A DNA stretch of 64,000 nt, taken from assembly GCA_027405735.1 (NCBI GenBank), contig JAPEHQ010000020.1, positions 248,001-312,000 of the forward strand, given 5' to 3'. The notes under the pieces were generated by a model, which saw only the letters and a list, made by a program, of their open reading frames with translations, was not told where the DNA came from and did no database searches. Each line of letters begins with the position of its first letter. The first letter of the stretch is position 1. This DNA is from Mucor racemosus (lineage: Eukaryota > Mucoromycota > Mucoromycetes > Mucorales > Mucoraceae). Position numbers and translations under genes: made by a program. Below, one piece after another: positions 39,921-45,303 of this stretch.

Positions 39921-40131
39921 CAGTGAGTCGCAAAACCCTTTCAATGATTTGGAAATTTGAATGAAAATAACCATAACTTTCTCAGTTTCGATCGGAGATA
40001 CACTAAATTTCTATTTTAAGTAATTCAAACGTTTTTAAATTATTTTCAAAAAGTCCAATCTAATTAATTAAAGTTCCGCAAAAACTATGCAAGTTTAAAA
40101 AAAGGTACATCATTGAAAGGGTTTTGCACGC
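39921..40131 (+). repeat. Tc1-like left terminal inverted repeat
   Basis: Matches 43,563-43,773 reversed. Unusually, the repeat itself starts with GCAAAACCCTTTCAATGAT and ends with its inverse, ATCATTGAAAGGGTTTTGC, so each arm is itself bounded by inverted copies of one motif. Confidence 0.85.
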
Positions 40132-40769
40132 ATTATCAAAAAAAAATGGAAGCTTATTTAAATGCAGTCAATAATCAATACCGTAACCTTTTGCTTTAAT
40201 ACAAGCTTTTACACGATGAGTCATACTCGAAATAACTTTTTGATATTCCCCAACTGTTATGTTGTCATACCAAATCTCTTGAGTTCTGTGCCAAATATCA
40301 TTCCTTCATCCCTTTTGGAGATGCATCGTATTCGTTTAGGCGGATTTTCAATAACCTCCACACATTTTCAATGGGATTAAGGCCTAGAGACTGCGCTGGC
40401 CATAACATTACTTCATATTTTTTTGTTTTGAAATCTTCTTTCATTAAATTAGAGGTGTGCTTAGAATCGTTGTCTTGTTGAAGGATAACCTAATTACAAC
40501 GCAACTTCAATTTTTGACACATATCGTCGATGGATTTCTCCAAATCATCATCAATAATAGTCCTGTATAGGTTGGAGTTCATATTACCTTCGACCTTGGA
40601 CAACCAAACGACACCAGACCAAGAAATAGAGCTCCAAATCATGATACGACCATCTCCATTTTTTCTTGTTTTTTGGTATGCTTAGGTTTTATCTCCTCGC
40701 TGTCTCTTTTCCAGCACCAAATTCGATCATCCGAGTTAAAACAATTAATTCTAGCCTCATCAGTAGATA

Positions 40770-41001
40770 GACGGATATCTATAATTTTCACATCTTTTTA
40801 ATTTTCTATATATATCCTATTTTTTTTTTGTATATCTTCAGATTTCATATTTTTATAACTTTCTTTATGAATTAAAATGATTATTAAATATAATAAACAT
40901 TATCAAGAAGGCAACGTTTTCATTTTGCATGAAAAAGCAACATTATATTTATGCTTTCTCTTAAGATACATACTAACTTCATATAAGATAAGATATCCGT
41001 C
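40770..41001 (+). repeat. direct repeat unit A of the chromodomain transposon
   Basis: 232 bp, differing from unit B (42,748-42,978) by about three substitutions and one base in a T run. Begins GACGGATATC and ends GATATCCGTC, so it has the structure of a small TIR element. Confidence 0.95.
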
Positions 41002-41259
41002 TTCTATAGCTATGCCATATTTATATATATGGATTTAAATTAAAGATTCATTCCAGATGGTAATTTTTATAAAAATGAATCTTCCCTTATCTTAACTTAA
41101 ATTAATTATTTACTATTCCAATATATTTTAATACAATAAAAGCTATTAAATTGAAGTCGATTAACTAAAAATATATAGCATGTGAATATCACGTGACCTT
41201 GTAAATTGTTTTATTTTTTTATTCTTTTATGTAATTTCTATATAAATATGAATGTTTAT

Positions 41260-42699
41260 CTATAGTTTAGTATTCCAATATGTATTAATACATTCATAAT
41301 TATTAAAATTACTATAATGTATCCAAGAATTATCAATATCACTATAATTTTTCCATTTTACAAGATAGTAACTATCTTCGACTATTAATCCCTTATGGTC
41401 CAAAATAATATCTATCTCGTAACTATTTTCATTACTATCTATGTCTGTTTCTAAATCCATTCTATCGTTATGATTGTTTTTAATATGTGAGGTATCTGAT
41501 AACTGTATTCCTAAAAATTGCTGCTGTAACAATTTCATTTTATCTAAATTATTAATTCTATCATTTAATTTTGGAAGTAATCTATAATTGTCAATATTAT
41601 TAGAGATATTATTCTTATATTCAAAATCAAAATTATCATTTATCCAATATGAATGAAAATCGTATTGTTCTATATTGTTTAATTTAACAAAATTTTTTAT
41701 GTTTAAAAGGACAGATGCAATTTTTAATTGTATATTATATATATTTATATTAGTTGTTAAAAAAGACTTTTTATTATTTAATCTTTTAAAAATAAACCCC
41801 ATGTCAGAAAAAGTTTTCTCCATTTTTGATCTAAAACTTCCAAATTGATCATTGTAATCTAATTCAATATTATCTAAATTTATATTTTTATCTTTTCTAA
41901 TGGGATATACAAAATTATACTCATTTAAATCAGAATTATTTATAATAGGATCTACATATAGACTGTATCCTCCATCTAATGCAACACAATCCATTAAATT
42001 TATTTTATTTTGTATATTCATATTTATAAGCATTGACCCATCATTATTGAAACTACATGGTACACTATCTGATATAAATATGATCATACTGTTATTATTT
42101 ATAGCAACCTGAGTTCTAAACCCATTTTTTTTTAATTTATAACTGTAATAAATAGATTTATCCTCTGCGCCATATACCATACCTCTTTTATCATGGCCGT
42201 CTATATGTATTGTTACTTGATTAAACAACATAGGATTTTCTATTATTCCGTTTAATAATCTGATCTTTATATTTGAAAACATATTTTGTAAAGAAAAGTT
42301 CAATATTTTATTTAATTTTAACATTCTATCAGCTGAATAAAATTGTCTATAAATTTGATGAAATGTACTTTTTGCTATATAATCATCCATATCTTCTATT
42401 GACTTATTTTCCGTAATAAAATATAATATTAGTAATCCTTTTTCTATATTATTATATGGTCCTTTATAATCTCTATCACCAAATAATATAATTAAGAAGA
42501 AATAAACAGGTATAATTCCTAATTTTTCTAATAAAGCCTTTTTTATTTCCTTGATCTTTTTGATAGAAATAGGTCTTTTAGTATGATACTTTTTTTGTTC
42601 AATCTCTGGCCATCCATAATTTAAAAATTTCCAATATTCATTTGTTAAATTTTGAAATTCCATTAATAAATTATCTCCAACATTATTAATGCCATCCAT
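41260..42699 (-). CDS. DDE transposase with C-terminal chromodomain
   Basis: Intact intronless 479-residue frame starting at 42,699, 49 bp from repeat unit B. A helical N-terminus (1-155) is followed by an RNase H-like DDE core: D167 in TIHIDGHD, D242 in CVALDGGYS and E294 in SFRSKMEKTFSDMGFIFKRL, the R...E..F pattern of the DDE_Tnp_4 (Harbinger/IS5-like) type. Residues 427-476 form a chromodomain (YEIDIILDH, YYLVKWKNYSD, SWI), with aromatic-cage positions Y427, W449 and Y452 kept, suggesting binding to methylated histone tails to guide integration. Codons are almost all A/T-ending and the protein is rich in Asn, Ile and Lys, more so than host genes here. Family name is inferred; no stop or shift is seen. 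Confidence 0.88.
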   Translation of the reverse strand: MDGINNVGDNLLMEFQNLTNEYWKFLNYGWPEIEQKKYHTKRPISIKKIKEIKKALLEKLGIIPVYFFLIILFGDRDYKGPYNNIEKGLLILYFITENKSIEDMDDYIAKSTFHQIYRQFYSADRMLKLNKILNFSLQNMFSNIKIRLLNGIIENPMLFNQVTIHIDGHDKRGMVYGAEDKSIYYSYKLKKNGFRTQVAINNNSMIIFISDSVPCSFNNDGSMLINMNIQNKINLMDCVALDGGYSLYVDPIINNSDLNEYNFVYPIRKDKNINLDNIELDYNDQFGSFRSKMEKTFSDMGFIFKRLNNKKSFLTTNINIYNIQLKIASVLLNIKNFVKLNNIEQYDFHSYWINDNFDFEYKNNISNNIDNYRLLPKLNDRINNLDKMKLLQQQFLGIQLSDTSHIKNNHNDRMDLETDIDSNENSYEIDIILDHKGLIVEDSYYLVKWKNYSDIDNSWIHYSNFNNYECINTYWNTKL

Positions 42700-42747
42700 T
42701 TCTTTTTTTTATTAGATAAAATTCAATTTTATATTATAATTATAGTA

Positions 42748-42978
42748 GACGGATATCTATAATTTTCACATCTTTTTAATTTTCTATATATATCCTATTT
42801 TTTTTTGTATATCTTCAGATTTCATATTTTTATAACTTTCTTTATGAATTAAAATGATTATTAAATATAATAAACATTATCAAGAAGGCAACTTTTCCAT
42901 TTTGCATGAAAAAGCAACATTATATTTATGCTTTCTCTTAAGATACATACTAACTTCATATAAGATAAGATATTCGTC
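42748..42978 (+). repeat. direct repeat unit B of the chromodomain transposon
   Basis: 231-bp partner of unit A in the same orientation. It lies immediately upstream of the transposase gene and so probably holds its promoter. Confidence 0.95.
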
Positions 42979-43562
42979 ATATAACACGCTTTCAGTCATC
43001 CAAAGTCCAATCAATTCTGTTTTTACATCAGCGGAGGCGATCCTTTGCATTTTCATCACTAATTTCTGGCTTTTTTATCTTAGGTAATGCGCCTAAACCA
43101 TTATTCCGAAGAGCCCTAGTACAGTATTCACACTGCCATTAGCGTGTACATTACGATGAAGCTTTTTTTTGGCTTGTACCGCATTATCCAAGCCACCTTT
43201 GGTGATTTTATGGACACAATATCTCATATCCGCAGTAGTCAGCTTAGATGGTCGGTCTCCTTTAAGTTTTTCTCGGTCAGGACAGGCCTTTTTTCCAATA
43301 CGACATACTGTGGCTTGACTAACAGCTACATGACGAGCAATTTCCGATACGGTATGGCCTGAATTTAACAGAGAGATAACGTCATTACGTTTGGCATCCG
43401 ATACAGTTTTCATCTTGATGATTTTGCTTGAAACTACTAGTAAAAAAGGCAGGGTAAAAGTTGAAAAACATCTCATATATTTTCCGCATATTTCTCTGTT
43501 TTATAAGATATCCAGCGTTAATGTACAAGTTAGGGGTTACAAAATTGTAATTTTAAGCCTGT

Positions 43563-43773
43563 GCGTGCAAAACCCTTTCAATGATGTACCTTTTTTTAAA
43601 CTTGCATAGTTTTTGCGGAACTTTAATTAATTAGATCGGACTTTTTGAAAATAATTTAAAAACGTTTGAATTACTTAAAATAGAAATTTAGTGTATCTCC
43701 GATTGAAACTGAGAAAGTTATGGTTATTTTCATTCAAATTTCCAAATCATTGAAAGGGTTTTGCGACTCATTG
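43563..43773 (-). repeat. Tc1-like right terminal inverted repeat
   Basis: Inverted copy of 39,921-40,131, with the same internal head-to-head motif. It ends directly at the TA duplication 43,774-43,775. Confidence 0.85.
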
Positions 43774-45303
43774 TATCTAGTCTTTTTATCATAATTCAAT
43801 ATTACGAGATGCATTATATTAAATAAGCGTGATCCCCGTTTGTCTTTGACGAAGGCATCAGTGTACAACGCAACAGCAAGGTCATCTGCTAATTGAAATT
43901 TTCCTTGGTTTAGAAACTGCTGATAAACTGCACCATCAAAGAAATCCTTTACATGATCTGGAGTCCTTTCATAGTTTGCCCTATATGAAAGCTCTTCTCT
44001 AGTTTTTCGGTTGCTCAATAATTTGGACACAATGTCACCAACAGATAAGATCTTCATTTTCTGAATTGGTCTATCATTTTCATCAAAACGATCACTTCCA
44101 CAATCACCGCAGATATCTTGTTCATCATTCAAGTTATACAATTTACAGCCATTTACGCAAGTATCATACTCATGAGCAGCAAATGAAGTTTTTTTCTTTA
44201 ATAAGTCATCAACAGCAGTGCCATGCATAATTTGGGAATCAGGTGCCTCTATTTAAAAATGGTCAATTTCAAAGGATATTTAATGCAGAACAAACTAAAA
44301 ATGTTTTTATATACCTTGTATCATAACATCATGATCTCTAATTATAGTATTCATTAACCGTACTAGTTGGCGATGGCATTCACGAGGCACAGCATATTCA
44401 GCAACAAGGTCGGCAAGGTGAATACTATATAATTCAAACTTGTTCATGTTTTGATAAGTACTGCAATCATCATACACACAAACAGGGTCATCACCATCGA
44501 TGAATTTGCCGTATGTTTTGTATGGAATATTAAGGTTTACACCTTCACCACTAGAAGTGTCATCTTCAACATCGCCAGAATCATCTTGGACTATATCATC
44601 AGGAGTAATTGGATCATCATCATAATCATCTATAAAAAAAATCCAGTATTGGTAAGTAAATGGTAATGGTAGCAGCAGAGGGAAGTAAAGAAGTAAACTT
44701 ACATGATTCCACATTTTGATCTTCCATTTGAATATCTCCATCATCGTCGTAAGTCATATTTTCATTATTTATAGCGTTATTGTCTCTATCTGACCGATCT
44801 TCATTGGTATTTGCAGTTACTTGAGTGCCTTCAGTATCTATCAAAGTATAACTCATGCAAACACCAGTATGAGTACGATTAAAGTGATTGTTTCTTGCAG
44901 CATAACCATCAAGCTCCACAAGACAAATGTTACATTTATACGTATTTCGTTGACGTCTCGTAGTAGAAATATATGAGTAGTCCATCTTATTTACCAAAAT
45001 ATAGCAATAAAAGCAATTGTAATCAGCTAATGAAAGAGTTATAAAGATATAAAATAATTGAGAAAATATGAGAGTATTTATAGTGTTTAGGGAGATTGTA
45101 TGTGTCAGACTTGAAAGGAAACTAAGTAGTACAAAAGGTTTGTTAAGTTTACTAGACATCTTTATATACCTTGCTTGTACGACAAAAGAAATACAAGAGC
45201 TAAAAAAGTAAATATGAATGCACCCGACACATTGGTTCACATCATATTCGTAGATAATAAAACCCTCGTAGTAGTTATATTGAATGTGTATAAATACCCT
45301 TTG

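Follow-up and report, generated by a model that had tools for sequence, protein, structure and literature searches.

A cut-and-paste transposase gene enclosed by LTR-like direct repeats, each of which has inverted ends of its own, raises the question of whether two small mobile units bracketed a gene by accident, whether a retroelement lies behind the arrangement, or whether duplicated ends are a recurrent way of building a DNA transposon. We address it with a 2,209-bp DNA transposon of Mucor racemosus, composed of a 232-bp unit, an internal region and a 231-bp unit at positions 40770-42978 of a 64,000-bp window. This window corresponds to bases 248001-312000 of contig C20 (G+C 32.8%) in an assembly of 53.2 Mb and 54 contigs.

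Structure and insertion site of the element

The two units of the window element (Table 1) are 98.3% identical, with four difference events. Both start with GACGGATATC and finish with GATAT(C,T)CGTC, so that each displays 11-bp inverted ends, in agreement with a previous sequence-only reading of the locus. The outer flanks are ATA/ATA while TTC and GTA are found at the inner flanks; as that reading had noticed, the shared trinucleotide belongs to the outermost ends alone. When the flanks were joined with a single ATA, the match to other copies of the surrounding repeat was unbroken over the junction at 40/40 scored places (115 candidates). That the composite integrated as one unit, duplicating 3 bp, is confirmed both by this empty site and by the target duplications. 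The tips of the internal region, TTCTATAGCTAT and TACTATAATTAT (window 41002-41013 and 42736-42747), form weak inverted repeats, with 9/12 matches in the family of the window element (family A); the corresponding tips match at 6/12 in family B and 5/12 in family C, two relatives described below.

The host repeat had been named Tc1, which is plausible: it is probably a degenerate Tc1-like element, one of its pieces resembling DDE_3 and another a helix-turn-helix model, although both matches are under the Pfam cut-offs and an empty copy of the repeat has no ORF of 100 codons. No RNA family reached its gathering threshold within window 40000-44000. Since the leader of the transposase gene is only 48 bp long, the promoter probably resides in the right unit, which would carry it in the fashion of an LTR.

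Table 1. Features of the family-A element in the window
Feature	Position	Strand	Remarks
Whole element (unit-internal-unit)	40770-42978	- (strand of gene)	Host is a degenerate, probably Tc1-like repeat
Target site duplication ATA, left copy, 3 bp	40767-40769	.	Flank comparison, empty site
Left unit, 232-bp terminal direct repeat of LTR-like form with 11-bp TIRs of its own; gene-downstream side	40770-41001	+	
Internal region, 1,746 bp	41002-42747	.	
Transposase gene, 479 codons, DDE_Tnp_4 and C-terminal chromodomain (427-476)	41260-42699	-	ORF, Pfam, alignment
Leader, start codon to right unit, 48 bp	42700-42747	-	
Right unit, 231 bp, last TIR with one mismatch; gene-upstream side	42748-42978	+	
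Target site duplication ATA, right copy, 3 bp	42979-42981	.	Flank comparison, empty site

The transposase joins a DDE nuclease to a chromodomain

The sole large ORF of the element is intact over its 479 codons, as first read. The encoded protein scores 31.2 bits with Pfam DDE_Tnp_4 (cut-off 24.8) and 29.2 bits with Chromo (cut-off 25.1), and D167, D242 and E294 are invariant across a 35-sequence alignment, which supports the DDE core and the chromodomain that had been proposed. The profile built from these 35 sequences matches, by sequence, the PDB chromodomains of HP1 and CBX. Y427, W449 and Y452, previously read as cage residues, are indeed found at the places given; their role as a putative methyl-lysine cage is one that we presume from HP1-type chromodomains.

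Among the best 120 of 293 homologues, Chromo (PF00385) is annotated in 90, and the named hosts are genera such as Mucor, Thamnidium, Cunninghamella, Mortierella and Apophysomyces, all of which we take to belong to the Mucoromycota in the wide sense. For a helicase encoded in the window, the four top-scoring matches with an organism name come from Jimgerdemannia, Paraphysoderma, Rhizopus and Circinella (42-61% identity), while closer matches without a name reach 87-96%. A search of viral contigs for relatives returned 84 pattern matches and 0 confirmed ones, while genome contigs yielded one 3,946-bp contig, L104, ending 32 bases past the stop codon. This contig (CANQOV010000062.1) carries a chromodomain transposase resembling that of family D (see below) and is binned as part of an uncultured Bacilli MAG, probably through fungal contamination of the bin.

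Full copies and solo units of family A

A DNA search of the genome gave 36 matches for family A, comprising at least 7 full copies, at least 27 unit-only copies (solos) and 2 weak paralogues; these counts are lower bounds. Both units are present in 7/7 full copies, and the same search gave no A internal region without two units. Of the full copies, 6/7 have 3-bp flanks that match, as do 26/27 of the solos, when 2.3% would be expected by chance from the window trinucleotides. The 3-bp target duplication proposed for full copies therefore holds but for two exceptions in the family, one full copy and one solo, which are reciprocal halves of each other and arose by inversion (see below). As two solo pairs go back to segmental duplication, the solo sites number 25. 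The near-identity of the copies suggests recent activity.

The 3-bp target duplications of PIF/Harbinger elements are typically TWA. In family A, counting 5' flanks, TAA/TTA accounts for 8/34 and ATA/TAT for 11/34, within a loose palindromic preference about an A+T-rich trinucleotide that includes C at -4 and the mirrored G (17/34 each). The full copy L041 and the solo L065 occupy the same position of one repeat in opposite orientation, with target duplications ATA and TAT; their flanks are just 84-90% alike, so they probably represent independent hits on one preferred site.

Units that differ from the majority sequence are less frequent among solos (6/27) than in full copies (10/14; Fisher P 0.006, the comparison including the two solo pairs that are segmental duplicates). 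In a separate tally, made per copy with a few changes shared, the units of the full copies (L039-L045) show 13 changes in 3,234 bp. The internal regions of these copies have 12 changes over 12,222 bp (P 0.0006 against the units), and solos have 6 over 6,237 bp (P 0.003). Several of these changes cluster at AACTTTTCC (columns 145-151), where a T/G subfamily marker is also found. The excess may reflect either repair that follows the excision of units or errors in the assembly.

The two units of one copy differ by a mean of 1.86 positions and units of different copies by 2.05, with no signal of greater likeness within a copy (permutation P 0.38). Reverse transcription would lead one to expect more alike units in the same copy, and we give next to no credence to the idea that the element derives from a chromovirus-like retroelement with true LTRs. 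Chromoviruses are Ty3/Gypsy elements with an integrase chromodomain, and the direct repeats, the solo units and the C-terminal chromodomain on a DDE enzyme do recall them; besides, the chromodomain part of our query matches many long genomic open frames, presumably of chromoviruses. The window element, however, has a single large ORF of the DDE_Tnp_4 type and no reverse transcriptase, and its units end in 11-bp inverted repeats instead of TG..CA.

Duplicated ends recur in related families

Further families were identified as paralogues by a protein search of the genome. Family B has one copy (L073), with 260-bp direct repeats that are 100% identical and flanks TGA/TGA, while family C has two (L074, L075), with repeats of about 255-258 bp that are 99.6% and 99.2% identical and flanks ATA/ATA and CTA/CTA. 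Both encode a transposase with a chromodomain, and pairwise transposase identities are 40% (A-B), 37% (A-C) and 50% (B-C). The B protein exceeds the DDE_Tnp_4 cut-off of 24.8 bits; C lies near it, with 22.5 bits for L074 as protein, 23.6 or 25.8 bits when neighbouring frames are included, and 24.8 bits for the other copy. The unit-ended layout is thus found in 10/10 full copies across three families, seven of them in A, one in B and two in C, and the duplicated-end architecture inferred from the window alone proves to be recurrent.

Solos exist in these families as well. B has them at three sites (one duplicated, one split by an insertion). C has four sites with near-identical solos and a fifth, older one that is present in three copies. 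The 3-bp flanks match in all of these B and C solos, the target-duplication checks of B, C and E unit matches leaving out 15/36 (pieces of 41-168 bp) and 2/9 (L086, L087). Family E consists of ten 256-bp solos, at nine sites with one duplicate, among which one base differs; a 3-bp duplication flanks 9/10 and a 4-bp one (AACT) the remaining solo. E units are 79% identical to C units. No full E copy was found in the genome; one may be absent from the assembly or have escaped the search.

Family D displays single ends (GGCGTC / CCTCC). Its 15 copies encode a 442-aa relative with no chromodomain, and the 3-bp flanks match in 13/15. Self-comparison of copy L078 revealed no direct repeats, and the remaining 14 copies can be aligned with L078 along the same 1.9 kb, with an insertion in one of them. 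The nearest relative of D among those compared is L104 (55%), which has a chromodomain; D therefore probably lost its own. The best Pfam match of the genome, a lone DDE_Tnp_4 frame, intact and about 500 aa long (L107, G000:C11:1805150; 100.6 bits), is not bracketed by any repeat pair within 4.8 kb; a 127-bp pair lies to one side of it. It may be a PIF element of the classical type or else a domesticated gene.

Units were compared between families as six pairs on both strands (12 comparisons). The match of C with E units is strong (z 51). B-C, when compared on the reverse strand, reaches z 4.1, its score tying with the best of 300 shuffles, and A-E reaches z 3.3, scoring 40 where shuffles scored 38 at most; the other nine comparisons give z 2.2 or less, and we place no weight on the two weak signals. 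The A, B and C unit sequences do not align beyond chance, which leaves room for an independent origin of each unit pair. A tree was built from the transposase's own relatives, the best 120 of 293 without seven rows (six of them shorter, the seventh, P0001, being identical to A). With a midpoint root and a quick method, and bearing in mind that the branches of C and D were flagged as long, B groups with C as its sister (100); D and three further rows join this pair (98), and A falls in another clade. This placement implies that the layout spans more than one clade, and that it either was present ancestrally and disappeared in D or arose two or more times.

These relationships bear on the first alternative of the sequence-only reading, a composite of two MITEs. 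In its general form, two MITEs would in each family have flanked a transposase gene in direct orientation by accident, and the composite would then have spread. We judge this unlikely. Solo units do resemble mobile MITEs, the units of the three families have unrelated sequences, and D proves that ordinary ends exist in the lineage; yet the accident would be needed separately in A and in the B/C lineage, in direct orientation each time and with loss of the single-ended ancestor, and 0/10 full A, B and C copies are bounded by a single TIR pair. Because the layout is common to three families, we disfavour an accidental origin and retain the other alternative, a recurrent architecture.

Insertion into repeats is about as frequent without a chromodomain as with one

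The presence of a chromodomain had suggested chromatin-targeted integration. We scored insertion flanks as repeats when they matched flanks of other A or D insertions, leaving out two segmental duplicates (L064, L069). This was the case for 54/64 flanks in A, which has a chromodomain, for 26/30 in D, which has none, and for 12/60 window tiles. The preference for repeats is thus strong and, in the comparison of A with D, independent of the chromodomain, so that chromodomain-directed targeting is not supported.

Recombination between units inverted a chromosomal segment

The two family-A exceptions are the full copy L040, with flanks ATA/TAA, and the solo L054, with flanks TAA/ATA, which lie about 47 kb apart on one contig in opposite orientation. 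As they stand, their flanks gave no spanning match among the fetched loci and the window. When cross-joined, they span uninterrupted repeats in 11 rows from 9 places, and the reciprocal junction does so in 19 rows from 14 places. The reciprocally swapped duplications demonstrate that recombination between units occurs, and that a crossover of the inverted units of L040 and L054 inverted the segment of about 47 kb between them. The units can therefore mediate chromosomal inversions.

Four further solos (two A, one B, one E) sit in inverted duplications whose copies are 4-9 kb apart (G000 C1:4716478/4723481, C22:818642/827455, C1:257123/261423 and C14:30927/38042). Over the loci compared, these are 99.8-100% identical and have the same target duplication in both copies. 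They could be palindromes of large size, or else the inverted ends, kilobases long, of some other element.

Units as transposon ends and as mobile elements

Given that units recombine and that solos keep their target duplications, all solos could in principle be relics of full copies, like solo LTRs, with units that are immobile alone. We regard this as decidedly improbable. Nine near-identical solo sites represent family E, for which no full copy was found, and the lower proportion of changed units among A solos is the reverse of what relics of older full copies would be expected to show. Both observations strongly suggest that solo units transpose on their own.

In our preferred reading, which we hold with reasonable confidence, the element is a composite-like, PIF/Harbinger-related (DDE_Tnp_4) DNA transposon whose units serve as its ends, move alone or as part of the composite, and recombine. 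The transposase, to which catalysis is attributed, would recognise the inverted tips of the units. Pairing of the outermost tips would move the whole unit-internal-unit element, with duplication of 3 bp upon integration, whereas pairing of the two tips of one unit would move a solo unit as a MITE. As a second process, homologous recombination between units would be one source of solos. Paired units may be kept alike by conversion, or by a circle of the internal region and one unit recombining into a resident solo. Half elements, multimers and circles were not seen among the 10 full copies, which counts against the circle step and against excision of units from a full copy, and the same-copy units of A, not detectably more alike than others, give no support to homogenisation within that family.

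A bolder reading, possible in our view but doubtful, is that of a second, independently evolved class of LTR-like DNA transposons in fungi, whose ends would be actively rebuilt by circle-into-solo homing without a homing endonuclease. Solos would then spread first by transposition and subsequently serve as landing pads.

Comparison with known systems

Bacterial composite transposons and IS26 pseudo-composites, as outlined in PMC9587614, likewise have two mobile units that bracket a co-moving segment; here, in contrast, the transposase is central and the units are too small for a transposase gene. Canonical PIF/Harbinger-ISL2EU-Spy (PHIS) elements are bounded by one TIR pair and carry a Myb/SANT gene as their second gene (in part PMC12730594). 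The window element resembles them in its DDE_Tnp_4 nuclease with D, D and E, its 3-bp duplications and its short TIRs, but there is no room for a second Myb/SANT gene in A, B or C, and the PHIS-typical TAA/TTA duplications are a minority in A. In the passages of PMC12730594 that were examined the term chromodomain is absent, and direct repeats appears once, in an unrelated context. Titles and abstracts of open-licence papers in PMC, a scope outside which Repbase reports fall, gave no other Harbinger-type or chromodomain element with such repeats.

The closest parallel is found in animals, and it means that the architecture, contrary to what had been suggested, is not new. According to Kojima and Bao 2022 (PMC9587614), KolobokP DNA transposons consist of LTDR-internal-LTDR, each repeat with its own short TIRs, a layout termed 'unlike any other DNA transposons'. 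The authors describe abundant solo repeats, multimers, half elements, evidence of single-repeat excision and a circle-into-solo model, and they propose that a homing endonuclease drives multimerisation and counterbalances the loss of the paired structure, although some families also seem to be without this His-Me enzyme. KolobokP and families A, B and C are alike in their terminal direct repeats with own TIRs, their solos with target duplications and their internal DDE transposase. They differ in that KolobokP belongs to the Kolobok superfamily of animals, with repeats of about 450 or 660 bp, and here we have DDE_Tnp_4 in a fungus, repeats of 231-260 bp and a chromodomain. The His-Me homing endonuclease present in most KolobokP families, the multimers and the half elements have no counterpart in A, B and C; the internal region outside the ORF measures 306, 170 and 175 bp respectively, too little for a His-Me endonuclease gene. 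The C/DxxH motif reported there for the Kolobok-type transposase is absent between the second D and the E in all three families, and the A transposase has no histidine at all in this interval. Other features do not discriminate: the termini are GA..TC in A, B and C, and so conform to the 5'-RR..YY-3' of KolobokP, which is not Kolobok-specific, and the described KolobokP target duplications, of 3-4 or 4-5 bp and hence 3-5 bp overall, show no strong preference, so that duplication length does not tell the two groups apart.

A cut-and-paste element thus carries a retrovirus-like layout, and LTR-finding programs could take such elements for retrotransposons. The upkeep of paired ends becomes a comparative question, for which a small system of 2.2 kb and one gene is suited to assays. 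Since three families have the layout with no endonuclease gene, a homing endonuclease is not required for it. Altogether, within the open-licence literature searched, this is a second lineage with a KolobokP-like layout, in another superfamily and another kingdom and without an endonuclease in the three families seen, which indicates that the design arose more than once or is older.
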